Shown piece by piece: positions 1 through 18,350 of a stretch of 64,000 nucleotides of DNA. Each line of letters begins with the position of its first letter. Positions within the stretch are counted from its first letter, which is position 1. The stretch spans positions 124,001-188,000 of the forward strand of contig NZ_JBAJEX010000004.1 of the NCBI RefSeq assembly GCF_039822265.1, in the 5' to 3' direction. A program made the position numbers and the translations under genes. Source of the DNA: Thiobacter sp. AK1. GTDB lineage: Bacteria; Pseudomonadota; Gammaproteobacteria; Burkholderiales; Thiobacteraceae. The notes below the pieces were generated by a model. It made no database searches. It was not told the origin of the DNA and saw nothing but the letters and a program-made list of their open reading frames with translations.

Positions 1-280
1 GGCAGCTCGTGCACACCGCCTGATACACCTGCTCGCCGGTGCGCTCCACGCGCGGCGCGTTGGGATCGACCGACTTCACCTCCGCAACGGGCTTGATGCG
101 TTCCCGCACCGCTAAATCGGCGAGTTGGGGATCATCCTTGTCGATATGACTCGCCTGGATGGACAGCACCAGCTGCACAATCAGGACGATGGCGATGATG
201 GGCGCAGCGAAACCGCCGATCAGGGCGACGATCACCTGCCGCGCAGTGGTCTTGGGAACGCCAGTGCTTTGTTCACTCAT
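1..280 (-). CDS. c-type cytochrome (cytochrome c5-like), 3' part cut by window edge
   Basis: The start codon is at 280 and reading leftwards gives a short cytoplasmic N-terminus followed by one hydrophobic segment (about residues 16-38). This looks like a membrane anchor, because no signal-peptidase site is obvious. A linker follows, and the window ends inside a haem-binding motif: the last full codons read C-T-S-C and the next codon begins with c, as expected for a CxxCH histidine. The protein is therefore probably a membrane-anchored monohaem or dihaem cytochrome facing the periplasm that passes electrons in a respiratory chain. The part that would define the exact family (methionine ligand, second haem) is outside the window. 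It is transcribed away from the tRNA gene to its right. Confidence 0.8.
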   Translation of the reverse strand, partial: MSEQSTGVPKTTARQVIVALIGGFAAPIIAIVLIVQLVLSIQASHIDKDDPQLADLAVRERIKPVAEVKSVDPNAPRVERTGEQVYQAVCTSC

Positions 281-423
281 AATGATCAAGGCCTTGTGTG
301 GTTGCCAGATAAAGATCGCCGCGGGAAACCCCACGTAAAGGTCCTGATTATACGGGTTTCGGCCGCTTCGGCCAAGGTAATGCGTAGAGCAAAATGCCGA
401 AAGGCGTTATACTTACGCGGCTT

Positions 424-500
424 GCGCCCGTAGCTCAGTTGGATAGAGTACAGCCCTCCGAAGGCTGGGGTCGGACGTTCGAATCGTCTCGGGCGCGCCA
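424..500 (+). tRNA. tRNA-Arg (anticodon CCG)
   Basis: A full cloverleaf is visible. The acceptor stem GCGCCCG (424-430) pairs with CGGGCGC (490-496), followed by discriminator G and an encoded CCA. The anticodon stem CAGCC/GGCTG encloses the loop CTCCGAA, giving anticodon CCG, which reads CGG arginine codons. The T loop contains TTCGAAT. A TATACT hexamer at 408-413 is well placed as a -10 box about 10 bases before the mature 5' end, although its -35 partner is poor. Confidence 0.95.
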
Positions 501-1314
501 GACAGATGCCTGTTCGGTGCCAGGCGGCGACTCATCAGCAGTACGCACCTCCGTGCCCCACCTTTTCGTCCCCGCAAGGGCGGTGGACCGGCAGCCCGGC
601 TACGGATTGCCTTTCTCCCATTTCCTTTGGAATGCCGTCGTCGGTCATTGCGCCCACGCGACGCGAGAACCGGATTGTGCAACCCCTTTTCTGTAAATAT
701 CTGCGGCGGACGTCATGACGCGTGGGTTACGGAGGCCTCCTCGGCGCACTGGGCAAGCTTGTGATGCGCCTTGCGCCAGGCTTCCAAAGCGGCCGCGAAG
801 AGCCGCTCGGCTTCCATCTCGTCAAGGGGCATGGGAGATGGCGCGCAGTTGAGGGGCAACGCTCTTTCGCGCTTGCCTTTCGCGTCATGAGTTGACCGGC
901 GTTCTGTTGCAGAGGGAACTGGGCCCTCCCAGGGCACAGCAAGCAAGACGGCGCGGCGGGCGGCTGCAAGCCCCCCACGGTGATCGGCGACGATACGTTT
1001 GACCCCTTTCAGCCCCGCGGGCCAAGAGGCTTTCCAGAAAGCGCCGCCGGTTCAATTCCGCTCCCTTGGGTGCAACCGAATACGCGGCGCTTGTTTCGAA
1101 AAGATGAAGCCGAAGGTGCAGCGGGGCTTGCGAGCCGTCGGCCGGGCCGGCCCTCGAACCACAGGATCGCCGAACTGCGCAAGGCAGCAATTTTGGATCA
1201 AGTGCATAGCCCCGACGCCAACTTCGGGCAGCGTGGAAGGGGACATCCAGCACGTAGCCGCCACGGGTCCGGCCGCCAGCCCGTCGCACTCGCCACGACT
1301 TGTCACGACACCTA
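501..1314. other. about 0.8 kb with no convincing gene
   Basis: Several overlapping reading frames run through this stretch on both strands, but none has a recognisable domain, a ribosome binding site or a protein-like composition. They are rich in Arg, Pro, Gly and Ser, as expected of out-of-frame high-GC DNA. The only segment with some protein character is a minus-strand frame from about 832 to 713 (39 codons, MPLDEMEAERLF onward, helical and amphipathic), which lacks a Shine-Dalgarno sequence. The region reads like decayed accessory DNA next to a tRNA gene. Confidence 0.5.
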
Positions 1315-1707
1315 TCAGCCCTCCTTCGGTTTTTGCTCGGCCACCATTTCGGGGGTTGCACCCGGACATTGCTTCTGAATCGCCACCTGCTGCAAGGCGT
1401 CGTACTCACCCTTGAGGCGCGCATATTCGGCTTCCTGCGCCTTGGTGCCACCCAGCGCGAATAGCGCGGGCCAGAAAAGAATCAGCCCCACGCCGGCGAT
1501 TGCCTTGTCGTTGGCGGCCGCTTGATCCAGCCGCCCAGCAAGCTGCGTGGCGCGCGTTTGCACACGCTGCATCTCCGCCATGATCTGCCCACAGTCATAT
1601 TGCTGATATTGCAGGGGCGATACTGATTGCGCAGCGATGTCTTTCGAAGCCCTGGCACAACCAGTCAGTTGCGCCGTGGCACAAGCAGACACGGTGAACA
1701 GCGCCAC
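1315..1707 (-). CDS. small lipoprotein-like protein with coiled coil and one hydrophobic segment
   Basis: This 130-residue protein starts at a GTG; an in-frame stop lies three codons upstream, so no longer start exists. The N-terminus is short and mildly hydrophobic and contains L-T-G-C at residues 14-17, which looks like a lipobox. It is followed by a Cys-containing helical region (YDCGQIMAEMQRVQ), a hydrophobic stretch around IAGVGLILFWPALFAL, and a charged helix with another Cys near the C-terminus. The layout resembles small uncharacterised proteobacterial lipoproteins with a glycine-containing hydrophobic hairpin. The signal sequence is unusually short, so the first codons may be damaged. 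The gene ends beside non-coding DNA and its upstream region leads into the CRISPR relic. Confidence 0.55.
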   Translation of the reverse strand: MALFTVSACATAQLTGCARASKDIAAQSVSPLQYQQYDCGQIMAEMQRVQTRATQLAGRLDQAAANDKAIAGVGLILFWPALFALGGTKAQEAEYARLKGEYDALQQVAIQKQCPGATPEMVAEQKPKEG

Positions 1708-1745
1708 AGTTTTTTATTGTGTTTTCCTTTCCCTGTTAAATGGCA

Positions 1746-1851
1746 TGTCAAACCCTTTGTGATCAGAGCATGTCTTCGGATCGCAGACGCATGGACAAAG
1801 ACAATCGTGGGTGGGTCTCAATCCCTTTGTGATCAGGGCATGTGTTCGGAT
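1746..1851. CRISPR. degenerate two-repeat CRISPR remnant
   Basis: Two 36-base repeats at 1746-1781 and 1816-1851 are identical at 32 of 36 positions and are separated by a unique 34-base segment, giving a 70-base period. The core CCCTTTGTGATCAG is shared, and the style (TCTCAATCCCTT...ATCAGGGCATG) resembles repeats of type III arrays. The orphan CARF gene that starts its 3' end only 70 bases away supports a CRISPR origin. No further repeats are seen on either side and no cas1 or cas2 lies in the window, so this is a relic or the worn end of an array. A chance duplication is possible but less likely given the geometry and neighbour. Confidence 0.6.
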
Positions 1852-1921
1852 AGCAATGGTACCCAATCCTATTATCGTTTGATGTGCAGCCATTTTGCTC
1901 GAACGGCAAGCTTGTCTGTCA

Positions 1922-3082
1922 TCACAACGTTTCCCTTTTCTTCCCCGTTCCTGGCTGGTCGCATATCTCGATCTGACCCGGTTCTAACGGCAGGTAGTAG
2001 TAGCTGTGGCCGCGCGGGCCGTCGCGTTGGATGAGATAGCGGGCGGCGGCCTGCCTGCCCAAGGCCGTTTCGAAGGCGGTCTTGATGCGCGACTTGTGTG
2101 GCTCGAAGTATTCGCCGAGCATCTTGGGATCGCTCGAACGCTCGCGGATGGCCTTCTCGCATCGCTCATACTCTCCTGTCATTGAGTTCATGAGACGCGC
2201 GGCAACGGCAAGAAACCCCTCTGCCTCGTCGGCGTCCTGCCAGCAGACGTTCGGCTCGCCGCTGCCCGCGCGCTCGGCAAGCCAGAGCAGGACGGCGAGT
2301 TCCGTGGGGCTCAGGTCGAGGGCAACACCGTCGGCCGTGACGGATTTTGCGTTTATGTCGATAAATAGGTGGGGCTCCATGAGCGCGCGATTGGCCGCCG
2401 CGACCACCTCACTCAAACTGGCGTGCCCCGTGAGCAGCCCGGGGGGCAGTCCTTCGCGCAGGCGCACAAAAGGAATTTCGGCCAGGGTGACCCGCGCCTC
2501 TCGGCAGTCGGCGAGCTTGCCGTCGCGGGTCTGGATAATGCGCTCGTGGCGCGTGGGATAAAAGAACTCCCAGCTCGATTCGAACGGCTCGGATACGAGC
2601 ACATGGGAGAGACGATCCTGCGGACGACCGAACAGGGAGAGTGCATAACCCAGGTAATAGCCCATGGTCTTGCGTCCGCCCGCGATCGAGACGTGTAGCG
2701 CGGTGCCCGGATCGGCCGTGAGAGTGCGCACGATGTCCGTGATGCGGTCCGCAGCATGCTGATTGTCGGCTGGGGTGCGGATGTCGGCAAGCGCAACGCC
2801 AGACGCATCTTCAATGGTGTGGATGTGCGCTTCGCCAAAGGCGATGGGTGGCAGCGCGTAGTCCAGACACAGGCGGCGAAACCAGCCAGGGTCTTCGGAC
2901 AACAGCGCAAGCCGCGCTCGCGCTGCGCCCTCGGCCGTGGTGATGAGCCGGACTTCCGTGGGGACGAAGGGCGCCGGTTGGTGAATCAGCGCGTAGAGGG
3001 TCTCGGTGACGACCTGTGGGGTGAGACCGCTCACGGCGAGCAGAACACGGCGCTCAAAGGTGTGGGGCTCATTGGGTGTCAT
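1922..3082 (-). CDS. CARF-domain CRISPR accessory protein, Cas_NE0113 (ring-nuclease/Csm6-like) family
   Basis: The start is set at 3082 because GGAG lies eight bases upstream; longer in-frame starts lack this. The 386-residue product opens with a beta strand and nucleotide-binding motif of the CARF type (LLAVSGLTPQVVTETL, about 14-29) and carries SIAGGRKTM at 132-140, matching the conserved ligand-binding motif of Csm6/Csx1-type CARF domains. The C-terminal half (from about 245) looks like a winged-helix module (LDLSPTELAVLLWLAE) followed by a conserved Tyr-rich end. An R-x5-H string near residue 362 is not in a convincing HEPN context. Family knowledge suggests binding, and perhaps degradation, of cyclic oligoadenylate made by type III CRISPR complexes. 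No such complex is in the window, so it is an orphan here. Confidence 0.85.
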   Translation of the reverse strand: MTPNEPHTFERRVLLAVSGLTPQVVTETLYALIHQPAPFVPTEVRLITTAEGAARARLALLSEDPGWFRRLCLDYALPPIAFGEAHIHTIEDASGVALADIRTPADNQHAADRITDIVRTLTADPGTALHVSIAGGRKTMGYYLGYALSLFGRPQDRLSHVLVSEPFESSWEFFYPTRHERIIQTRDGKLADCREARVTLAEIPFVRLREGLPPGLLTGHASLSEVVAAANRALMEPHLFIDINAKSVTADGVALDLSPTELAVLLWLAERAGSGEPNVCWQDADEAEGFLAVAARLMNSMTGEYERCEKAIRERSSDPKMLGEYFEPHKSRIKTAFETALGRQAAARYLIQRDGPRGHSYYYLPLEPGQIEICDQPGTGKKRETL

Positions 3083-3244
3083 GACTCGGTCTCCAATGGA
3101 GCCCCATCCTGCCAGGCGTTCTTTGGCCGCGCTCGCGCCACAAGCTTGCGAGCGCGTCACTTTTGGGACCGATTACCGCGCTTCTGTGCCCCGCGCGCCT
3201 TTACCGACGCTGGTTTATTGGATTCGACTCCCTGGTGGGGATCT

Positions 3245-3273
3245 AATCTAAGCGAGCCACCTGCGTTCTTCAA
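3245..3273 (-). promoter_or_regulatory. candidate sigma-70 promoter for the CARF gene
   Basis: Read on the minus strand, TTGAAG (-35) and TAGATT (-10) are separated by 17 bases. Transcription would begin near 3238 and give a leader of about 155 bases before the CARF start codon. No other good pair was seen in the gap between this gene and the divergent pirin gene. Confidence 0.4.
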
Positions 3274-3344
3274 GACCCCTGTAGGCAGCAAAGCGCACGT
3301 GGCGTAGGATGCGCGCTGCGCCCATCGCAAACTTATGTTCGATC

Positions 3345-4199
3345 ATGACGCTTCGCACCGTTGTTCACACCGTTCAGGCCCAGCCGCTCTCCGAAGGCGC
3401 TGGCGTGACCGTTTACCGTAGCATCGGCACCCCCAGGCTGCGGCACCTGGATCCCTTTTTGCTGTTGGACCATTTCGGCAGCGATGACCCGAACGACTAT
3501 ATCGCGGGCTTTCCGGATCACCCCCATCGGGGTTTCATAACCCTCACCTACATGCTGGATGGCCGCATGCTGCATCGCGACAGCCTGGGCAACACCAGCG
3601 AGTTGCGTGCCGGGGGCGCGCAGTGGATGCGGGCGGGCAGCGGTGTCATCCATTCCGAGATGCCCCAGCAGGCGGAGGGGCGGATGCGAGGTTTCCAGCT
3701 TTGGATCAATCTGCCTGCGGCGCAGAAGATGAGCGAGCCCGCCTATCAGGAATTTTCCGCGCAGGCCATTCCTGAGCTTGCCTCGCCTGGGCATCGCGTG
3801 CGGATCCTGCTTGGGGAATATGCAGGCGTGCGCGGGCCCATCGCCGACGATGTCACCCAAGTGCAGTATCTCGATGTGGCGCTCGAACGGAACGCACGGT
3901 TCGAACATGCCTTGCCCGCCGCGCACACGGCCTTCATCTACGTGTTCGAAGGCGAGGCTGTTGCAGGCAACGTGCTCAAGCCCCACACGCTGGGCGTGCT
4001 CTCCCCCGGGGAGGACGTGCAGGTCACGGCCGGTGTGGCCGGCACGCGTTTCATTCTGGTGGCGGGGCGGCCGCTTTATGAGCCCGTGGTGCAATACGGG
4101 CCGTTCGTGATGAACACGCGCGAGGAGATCGAACAGGCATTGCGCGATTACCGGGCTGGCACCCTGGTCCGGCACGCGCCCGACTTCTCGGCCAGGTGA
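3345..4199 (+). CDS. pirin family protein (cupin-fold metalloprotein)
   Basis: A 284-residue protein if it starts at the ATG at 3345; an alternative ATG at 3309 adds 12 residues. The N-terminal cupin domain carries the pirin metal-site motifs DHPHRGF (two His) and GVIHSEMP (His and Glu) in the order and spacing of the family, and a second cupin domain forms the C-terminal half, ending with the typical PFVMNTREEIEQA segment. Bacterial pirins bind Fe(II) or similar metals. Some show quercetin 2,3-dioxygenase activity and others modulate metabolic enzymes, so the substrate cannot be assigned. It is divergent from the CARF gene and stands alone. Confidence 0.9.
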   Translation: MTLRTVVHTVQAQPLSEGAGVTVYRSIGTPRLRHLDPFLLLDHFGSDDPNDYIAGFPDHPHRGFITLTYMLDGRMLHRDSLGNTSELRAGGAQWMRAGSGVIHSEMPQQAEGRMRGFQLWINLPAAQKMSEPAYQEFSAQAIPELASPGHRVRILLGEYAGVRGPIADDVTQVQYLDVALERNARFEHALPAAHTAFIYVFEGEAVAGNVLKPHTLGVLSPGEDVQVTAGVAGTRFILVAGRPLYEPVVQYGPFVMNTREEIEQALRDYRAGTLVRHAPDFSAR

Positions 4200-4326
4200 T
4201 CAACCTAACCTGCGACCGTCTTGTCCAACCCAGGCGCGTCTGAGACCCTCTCATCCCGCCTCCTGCTGGGTCACCCGGGTTGAAGCACGGCCAGCGCGGC
4301 GATCGACGCGGCGGCGGCTGGCTCCC

Positions 4327-5664
4327 TCACAGCACGTAACGGGCAAGATCTTCGCTCGTGGCCAGATCCTTGAGGCGGGCATCCACGTAGGCGGCATCGA
4401 TGACCACGGTGCTGCCAGCCTGGCGGTCGGCGGCGAAGGAAATGTCTTCCAGCAGCCGCTCCATCACCGTGTGCAGGCGGCGCGCACCGATGTTCTCGGT
4501 GCGTTCATTCACCTCGAAGGCGATCTCGGCGATGCGCCGGATGCCATCGGGCGCAAATTCCAGCGTCACACCTTCGGTGGCAAGCAAAGCCTGGTACTGT
4601 TTGATGAGGCAGGCATCGGTACCGGTAAGAATCTGTTCAAAATCTCCGACGGAAAGGGAATCCAGCTCCACGCGGATCGGGAGCCGTCCCTGCAATTCCG
4701 GAATGAGATCAGAGGGTTTGGCGAGATGGAAGGCGCCGGAGCCAATGAACAGAATGTGGTCGGTGCGGATCATGCCGTATTTGGTGGAGACGGTGGTACC
4801 CTCGATGAGCGGCAGTAGATCCCGCTGCACGCCTTGGCGCGAAACATCGGCGCCACTCGTCTCCGCGCGGCTGGCGATCTTGTCCATCTCGTCGATGAAG
4901 ACGATGCCGTTTTGCTCCACACTGGCCACGGCTCGCTGACGAATCTCTTCCTCGTTGATGAGCTTGAGGGCTTCTTCTTCGGTAAGGCTACGGAAGGCCT
5001 CGCGCACGCGCATTTTTTTCAGCTTGCGCCGCCCTCCACCCAGGTTTTGAAACAGTCCCTGGATCTGGCTGGTGAGTTCCTCCATGCCGGGTGGCGCGAA
5101 AATTTCCATGTGCGGGGCAGCCACGGCCATCTCGATCTCGATTTCCTTGTCGTCGAGCTTCCCCTCCCGCAGCATCTTGCGGAATTTCTGGCGTGTGGCG
5201 GATTCTTCCTGGGTGCTGCCTTGTCCACCTAAACCGAAGCCGACATCGCGCGCTGGTGGCAATAGCGCGTCCAGGATGCGCTCCTCGGCGATCTCCTCGG
5301 CGCGAAACTGCACCTTGCGCATTTCCTCTTCGCGCGTCTGCTTCACCGCCATGTCCACAAGGTCGCGGATGATGGTGTCCACGTCACGTCCCACGTACCC
5401 CACTTCGGTGAACTTGGTGGCCTCCACCTTGATGAAGGGCGCATTGGCCAGACGTGCAAGTCGCCGCGCGATTTCCGTCTTGCCCACGCCGGTGGGTCCG
5501 ATCATGAGGATGTTCTTTGGCGTGATTTCCTGACGCAGCGGATCACTCACCTGCATGCGCCGCCAGCGGTTGCGTAGGGCGATGGCGACGGCGCGCTTGG
5601 CCGCCTGCTGGCCGACGATGTGTTTGTTAAGCTCGTGGACGATTTCCTGCGGTGTCATTTGCAT
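4327..5664 (-). CDS. hslU: ATP-dependent protease ATPase subunit HslU
   Basis: 445 residues, the usual length. The AAA+ N-domain has Walker A GPTGVGKT at 56-63, the substrate-gripping pore segment GYVGRD near 92, an inserted I-domain of about 130 residues rich in charged residues, Walker B VFIDEMDK around 255 and the sensor/arginine region near [13 protein letters not shown]. The chain ends in the short hydrophobic C-terminal tail that docks into HslV. HslU unfolds substrates and feeds them to the HslV chamber in the cytoplasm. It lies 22 bases downstream of hslV in the same orientation, so the two are co-transcribed. Confidence 0.98.
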
Positions 5665-18239: not shown

Positions 18240-18350
18240 GCAAAAAAAACGCAGCCCGTGCGGGGCTGCGTTCAAATCCACCAAAGGAGGAGGATGGAGG
18301 AGACAACGATAAGACGCAGGCGCGTCTTACGTATGAGCATTTTCTAATAT
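18240..18350 (-). ncRNA. candidate small RNA with pyrimidine-rich anti-Shine-Dalgarno segment and terminator
   Basis: Read on the minus strand, an 8-bp hairpin (TAAGACGC/GCGTCTTA, four-base loop, about 18310-18330) is followed by an unpaired pyrimidine tract CTCCTCCATCCTCCTCC (about 18286-18303). An intrinsic terminator comes next: a 10-bp stem AACGCAGCCC/GGGCTGCGTT at 18248-18272 and eight T. No minus-strand gene reads into this terminator, which argues for a short independent transcript. The 5' end is uncertain and no strong promoter was identified; TTGCAA near 18365 is a weak possibility. An alternative on the plus strand is a 17-codon frame from 18294 preceded by AAAGGAGGAGG. Confidence 0.4.

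Follow-up and report, generated by a model that had tools for sequence, protein, structure and literature searches.

An apparently stranded CARF–winged-helix gene from a lost type III-B CRISPR locus, and a promoter-phased palindrome that may be the operator of its family

What is a gene for a CRISPR-associated messenger sensor doing beside two degenerate repeats, in a genome region that holds no CRISPR system? The gene lies near the left end of the stretch of DNA analysed here (64,000 nucleotides; the window). The original prediction, made from the letters alone, described an orphan CARF gene next to the remains of an array, and proposed either that a type III locus elsewhere still makes its messenger or that it was kept for another signalling role. 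Its account of the family, the array remnant, the C-terminal fold, the absence of a HEPN motif and the leaning towards a regulator withstood scrutiny; its suggestion of a type III locus elsewhere did not. To these we add the boundaries of the islet that carries the gene, a lipoprotein-like gene shared with a related type III-B locus in another genome (G029), and a palindrome with an associated −10 element. The islet and its borders comprise the following features.

424–500, plus strand: tRNA-Arg (CCG), which bounds the islet on the left (ARAGORN; homology with a congener runs to window position 501)
734–1065, no strand assigned: transposase gene remnant of the IS256/IS406 family (72% identical, by blastn, to a transposase annotated as IS406-family)
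1315–1707, minus strand: lipoprotein-like ORF with a damaged start, corresponding to the CARF-adjacent gene of G029 (by identity to G029)
1745–1781, plus strand: CRISPR repeat 1, degenerate (24/36 positions shared with the G029 repeat)
1782–1814, plus strand: 33-nt spacer (no convincing target found)
1815–1851, plus strand: CRISPR repeat 2 (28/36 positions shared with the G029 repeat)
1922–3082, minus strand: NE0113-family CARF–winged-helix protein, 386 aa (profile matches and structure model)
3309–4199, plus strand: pirin-family gene, which bounds the islet on the right (PF02678, 2e-35; adjoins the tRNA in the congener)

The assignment of the ORF at 1922–3082 to the CARF family is secure. It exceeds by far the curated cut-offs of PF09623 (Cas_NE0113; E = 3.1e-48, 164.8 bits against 23) and TIGR02584 (E = 3.3e-72, 242.9 bits against 80.65), both of which cover the CARF half of the protein, and it matches the PADLOC CARF5 model, which spans almost the whole protein, at E = 8.7e-132. 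An AlphaFold2 model was built from eight sequences (mean pLDDT 79.3, pTM 0.64), and the protein divides as follows.

2378–3061, minus strand: CARF domain, residues 8–235 (VIA-align Z up to 13.1 to Cad1 and 11–12 to Crn1 enzymes)
2663–2689, minus strand: motif II SIAGGRKTM, residues 132–140 (AGGRKT in 24/24 aligned proteins)
1982–2374, minus strand: OmpR/PhoB-type winged helix, residues 237–367 (Z 9.5–9.8 to CosR, AdeR, VanR and PrrA)

The ligand motif of the original prediction is present. The fold assignments come from VIA-align 2 run over Foldseek's own match list; Foldseek itself returned nothing below E 0.001 for the model (the best match was Cad1, at 0.0039), and phmmer with the orphan protein against PDB chains returned nothing up to E 10. 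The C-terminal half, called winged-helix-like in the original prediction, has an OmpR/PhoB-type fold in the model, aligning with its four matches over 90–94 residues with an rmsd of 2.2–2.5; by sequence alone, similarity to response regulators is weak (E 0.08–0.2). No R-x4-6-H position is common to the 24 aligned proteins, the two instances in the orphan appear to be chance occurrences, and the C-terminal halves of the G029 protein and eight other aligned proteins contain none. The conserved C-terminal R-x4-6-H of the Csm6/Csx1 HEPN ribonucleases was therefore not found, and with a winged helix in its place a regulator is likelier than an RNase, as first proposed.

The family name given by NCBI to TIGR02584 proteins, CRISPR-associated ring nuclease Csm6, suggests another function, in which the protein degrades cOA and the winged-helix half serves for dimerization only. 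The orphan combines a CARF domain with the GRK of motif II, as does Crn1; the GRK is invariant in the alignment, and the Crn1 enzymes Sso2081 (motif residues reported in PMC10018336) and Sis0455 match the CARF half with Z 11–12. Moreover, TaqCad1, of the same CARF5 clade, binds and cleaves cA4 and needs its motif-II lysine to do so (PMC12669630). That lysine is present in the orphan, for which the family name would imply ring nuclease activity. Unlike Crn1, which is annotated as stand-alone and below 250 aa (PMC12409355), the orphan has an extra winged-helix half and 386 aa, against 168–189 residues in the matched chains. This DNA-binding fold in the model, together with the phased operator at surrounding genes described below, makes a purely enzymatic role quite unlikely in our judgement. 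Regulator and ring nuclease are not exclusive, and the NE0113 protein may be both.

The two repeats, judged by their sequence, are the remnant of a real type III-B array. In a 37-nt register they differ at five positions and enclose a 33-nt spacer, and the end of repeat 2 lies 70 bases from the CARF stop codon, so the distance originally given for the pair is that to the second repeat. When the repeat of the G029 III-B array was compared with the window, they were its two best forward matches (28/36 and 24/36); the next best on either strand reached 20, and the best among 20 mononucleotide shuffles 22. Their orientation relative to the CARF gene is the same in both genomes. Searched through the entire assembly of 2.54 Mb (32 contigs; 99.97% complete), the second repeat was found at these two places only, not at many intergenic places. 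No spacer target was found among phages, and plasmids gave one 19-nt match (E 0.9). Two repeats are all that is left of the array.

The gene order at the intact G029 locus is array, cas2, cas1, CARF, lipoprotein-like gene, cas6, csx1, cmr6, cmr4, further ORFs, cas10 and cmr1. The lipoprotein-like ORF of the window is 80% identical to its G029 counterpart over residues 2–124 (84% at the DNA level over 273 bp); an in-frame stop lies immediately 5′ of its GTG, and the G029 start codon has no counterpart. Apart from G029, none of the 29 further loci in the comparison has a match to the protein; more distant relatives occur in four plasmid records. It lies on the opposite side of the repeats from its placement in G029, and rearrangement therefore accompanied the deletion. 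The 2.8-kb islet, which holds the transposase remnant, this ORF, the repeats and the CARF gene, is missing from the congener G001, in which the aligned stretches of tRNA-Arg and of pirin are 93 nt apart versus 2,836 nt here. A duplicated tRNA end was considered as an attachment site and rejected, as there was no exact 12-mer. The tRNA itself, called by ARAGORN, is absent from an Rfam scan at the gathering threshold.

An NE0113 gene was detected at E 1e-20 in 21 of 399 genomes of the order, this one included. A RAMP gene accompanies it in 16 of the 21, whereas the orphan stands alone. The five genomes without a RAMP match are this one, G308, G142 (a 5.6-kb contig, with a neighbouring ORF that is Cas6-like by eye), G176 (NE0113 gene truncated by the contig end) and G162 (a divergent protein). 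At E 1e-5, none of the nine other genomes of the family has the gene, two of the nine being less than 75% complete. A FastTree phylogeny joins the orphan with the G029 protein (0.98) and then with that of G308 (0.92); because the three genomes belong to different families, transfer is likely. The orphan is an ordinary relic in origin, and appears to have outlasted the rest of a type III-B CRISPR system. Other loci in states of reduction were also seen: G102 has an intact CARF gene plus cas6 and part of cmr6 (tblastn), and G011 (L024:4591–5297) a collapsed type III locus with fragments of cas6 and CARF and a Cas10 with two stops.

The absence of type III and other cas genes, first stated for the window, extends to the whole genome for the searches made. 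The RAMP profile PF03787 and Cas1 gave no match, and the one weak match to Cas10 proved to be a GGDEF protein, not Cas10, so that no Cas10 with Cmr/Csm RAMP subunits was found. It is accordingly hard to credit that the messenger still comes from a type III locus in another part of this genome. The assembly is in 32 contigs, and small cas remnants could escape the search, because the RAMP profile returned nothing for G102, where tblastn gives a Cmr6 fragment; against this stand the empty searches and the near-complete genome. A CBASS-type (SMODS) cyclase or a CARF–HEPN csx1 was considered as a partner and rejected, as neither SMODS nor the csx1 family tested gave a match in the genome. A phage-borne ring nuclease was rejected as well: no relative was found in phage records or, by pattern scan, in viral contigs.

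What the orphan protein may act on is suggested by a palindrome. It was first noticed as an inverted repeat upstream of the orphan's own CARF gene and was then tested with that locus excluded. In the 330 bp 5′ of the CARF anchor, CAAGCTTG is the top-ranked 8-mer, present in 14 of 28 loci (32 loci minus G107, G061 and Vgig, without an anchor, and the orphan). In 200 first-order shuffles no 8-mer exceeded 10 loci, and CAAGCTTG never exceeded 2. Eleven of the 14 copies sit 79–120 nt 5′ of the anchor. In 13 NE0113-bearing III-B loci (175 kb) the extended form RCAAGCTTGY was counted 40 times, whereas 443 kb of control stretches hold one copy and seven more distant NE0113 loci (61 kb) two; the loci in this comparison were chosen by CARF similarity. 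Copies are not confined to the CARF gene. When six loci, the window included, were examined gene by gene, 22 of 31 copies lay outside listed genes and 19 of the 31 lay 52–132 bp 5′ of a gene start, at cas6, cmr1, cas1, CARF, csx16 and others. On two Allochromatium plasmids (L073 and L074), the palindrome/−10 element also precedes EcsC-family, SHOCT/PEGA, PcfJ and csx16 genes in III-B loci, and uncharacterized genes are therefore part of the presumed regulon.

The palindrome is held at a fixed distance from a −10-like element. Over all 59 sites from 21 loci, counted in both orientations and with the orphan excluded, AxxxT stands at one fixed offset in 45 of 118 oriented sites, where the mean across offsets is 4.1 and the next best is 8. 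Counted by palindrome, 43 of the 59 show A at offset 38 and T at offset 42 when read in one or the other orientation (37 of 52 after removal of the near-duplicates G107 and Avin), and 16 are without the pattern. For six other palindromes that are frequent in these loci, the best offset gives 7 to 12. Among the 11 upstream copies at 79–120 nt, 8 carry AxxxT at the exact spacing. The −10-like box lies 29 nt beyond the palindrome, and 33 hand-picked oriented sites show no conserved −35 and extend the palindrome to CNRCAAGCTTGYNG. If AxxxT belongs to a −10 box, the centre of the palindrome would fall near −45. This layout is usual for activator-dependent promoters and suggests activation rather than repression.

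Whether the NE0113 protein is the one that reads the palindrome is a separate matter. The element could be the site of another activator, of the host or encoded by the III-B locus, with NE0113 merely among the regulated genes. In keeping with this, 14 of the 28 loci have no CAAGCTTG in the 330 bp 5′ of CARF, among them Allochromatium, Aeromonas and the congeneric G379, G142 and G270, and some of these hold copies elsewhere in the locus; the III-B loci of Allochromatium, L011 and L016 carry copies of which none is directly 5′ of CARF. On the other side, this orphan and that of G308, for which the searches gave no further type III gene, both have the site 5′ of CARF. The III-B loci of Azospirillum, Vibrio aerogenes, Thermomicrobium and Thermus, all four lacking NE0113 (75.5 kb), contain one CAAGCTTG between them and no composite element, a weak control because they come from distant organisms; in that scan for composite elements, L099 duplicates the contig L017 and adds no new locus. 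The NE0113 protein itself has, in the model, a winged helix of DNA-binding type. Taken together, we regard control by another activator as unlikely, and NE0113 as the probable palindrome-binding protein. In the proteins of G379, G142 and G270, whose loci lack a site 5′ of CARF, one helix of the winged-helix fold is altered and carries an inserted residue, which is only suggestive because they form one lineage. By the criterion applied, no other palindrome was found at the same place 5′ of distant NE0113 genes (18 loci).

The orphan has kept its own copy of this arrangement.

3138–3151, no strand assigned: operator-like palindrome (core CAAGCTTG at 3141–3148), 58 bp 5′ of the CARF start
3106–3111, minus strand: −10-like hexamer CAGGAT at the family spacing (fixed offset from the palindrome)
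3091–3094, minus strand: GGAG, likely ribosome-binding site (read from sequence)
1907–1914, no strand assigned: palindrome CAAGCTTG, probable cas1 operator relic, without a −10 (shares an exact 14-nt run with the G029 copy that lies 5′ of cas1)

The promoter thus runs from the palindrome through CAGGAT, at the exact spacing, and GGAG to the ATG at 3082; no other composite element occurs in the window. CAGGAT agrees with TATAAT at 3/6 positions, and a sigma-70 consensus scan of window positions 1–5000 reported nothing at the CARF start. That the copy at 1907 has no −10 at the fixed spacing is what a deletion of cas1 would lead one to expect. A further palindrome at 754 lies inside the transposase remnant and was taken as chance. 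A scan of 400 kb from other stretches of the genome, about one fifth of it, found six palindromes and one weak composite match.

This preservation bears on the second original proposal, that the gene was kept for another signalling role. Selection without CRISPR could act through sensing or soaking up the messenger of other machinery or of incoming plasmids, or through control of host genes. The ORF is intact and deviates at none of the columns conserved in at least 95% of the other proteins (other members deviate at 0–7), and the operator and −10 are intact beside a damaged lipoprotein-like ORF and the repeats. Orphans recur, in G308 and on plasmids of Vibrio gigantis and Photobacterium damselae, and an orphan Csx15 that sequesters cA4 provides a precedent (PMC13148439). 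However, recent loss accounts for the intactness equally well, and the dN/dS of 0.24 against G029 (dS about 1) reflects, as a comparison of sequences, constraint over the lineage that is not datable to after loss of the locus. The lack of a match to a SMODS cyclase or to the csx1 family tested and the single weak composite element in the sampled 400 kb also speak against the proposal, which we consider very unlikely.

The explanation that we favour, and hold to be probable as a whole, is that the gene encodes a CARF–winged-helix transcription regulator that arrived with a type III-B (Cmr) locus and is now stranded. Of that locus there would remain the CARF gene, two repeats, the damaged lipoprotein-like gene and two operator copies. 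In intact relatives, a dimer would bind CNRCAAGCTTGYNG near −45 and activate promoters that have a −10 and no −35, namely those of cas6, cmr1, cas1, csx16 and the gene, or operon, of the regulator itself. Its CARF domain would bind a messenger made by Cas10, most likely cA4, by analogy with TaqCad1, and binding would alter either DNA binding or contact with the polymerase; slow cleavage of the messenger by the CARF domain could perhaps reset the switch. Because no Cas10 was found in the genome, the orphan is now probably a messenger-blind autoregulator heading to loss, and it presumably has no present function.

Transcription regulation by NE0113 CARF proteins was predicted in 2014, when every CARF family was also noted to include genes unlinked to CRISPR–Cas (PMC4012209). 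A characterized CARF–winged-helix regulator is Csa3 (PMC9704534, PMC8844856), which a 2022 review names as the sole experimentally characterized non-nuclease CARF effector (PMC9704534). Like Csa3, the orphan combines a CARF sensor with a C-terminal winged helix (VIA-align on the model; CARF fold match Z 9.1–9.5), and the control of cas genes proposed for Csa3, like its palindromic targets (PMC8844856, PMC9704534), resembles what we propose. Unlike the orphan, Csa3 is described as occurring mostly with type I-A systems and as lacking ring nuclease activity (PMC8844856, PMC9704534); the orphan, for its part, has an OmpR/PhoB-like winged helix and a bacterial promoter. In Pfam up to E 10 the orphan matches Cas_NE0113 only, and its NCBIfam and PADLOC matches do not include Csa3, which is telling only if those libraries hold a Csa3 model. 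Cad1, a CARF–adenosine deaminase, comes closest in fold to the CARF half (Z 13.1) and has the same GRK motif, but the orphan has no deaminase domain. A further comparison is Csx15, a cOA-binding protein; about 25% of csx15 genes lie away from CRISPR loci, as the orphan does, but Csx15 belongs to another family and is described as a CARF-like fold alone (PMC13148439, PMC12409355). Because the 2014 prediction exists and Csa3 has been characterized, an NE0113 regulator is of a predicted kind; new are the operator, its promoter phasing and a stranded regulator with its own site. No operator for NE0113 was found in print in the open-access literature or, by literal-sequence search, among the matches listed.

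We infer that proteins of the orphan's type bind DNA at cas promoters, and that the NE0113 proteins of this clade are messenger-responsive type III-B activators, a bacterial counterpart of the archaeal Csa3. A bacterial CARF regulator with a defined operator and promoter layout would make the 2014 prediction directly testable. The layout also identifies the likely targets of NE0113, and it suggests that a type III-B system, when triggered, changes how it is itself expressed. In the orphan nature provides a minimal case, a regulator with its own operator and almost nothing else, and the comparison that it prompted yields a specific, testable proposal for this part of the family. A bolder version, which we offer as speculation and think unlikely to hold in full, would make NE0113/CARF5 proteins the master activators of a large proteobacterial III-B class, in which cOA acts on transcription through one conserved palindrome, fixed near −45, as a positive-feedback alarm with a ring-nuclease brake; orphans would then persist after the loss of their loci, as cA4 sensors or sinks that regulate themselves and could respond to the messenger of an incoming type III element.

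Several further observations concern the neighbours of NE0113 genes. A DUF2130 gene (PF09903), a possible partner, lies directly 3′ of NE0113 at three places, two of them III-B loci and one the apparent orphan of G308 (L058:1192–2349, L017:8960–10036 and L012:7766–8449, the last by tblastn only). At L011:1277–4606, an NE0113 gene is followed by one whose product, Cad1-like by eye, joins a CARF domain (AGGRKT) to an adenosine-deaminase-like part. The plasmid-borne NE0113 genes of Vibrio gigantis (L075:9998–11149) and Photobacterium damselae (L097:7998–9128) are further orphans, no cas genes being listed within 10 kb and 8 kb, respectively, in gene tables that are incomplete. At L072:371–6017, the congener G001 has a Cas1 gene (Pfam) beside ORFs that resemble a type I-E operon by eye, one of which, of 554 aa, has no Pfam match. 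Finally, window positions 18241–18305 match the Rfam family RF02278, Betaproteobacteria toxic small RNA, with 61.6 bits against a threshold of 50.
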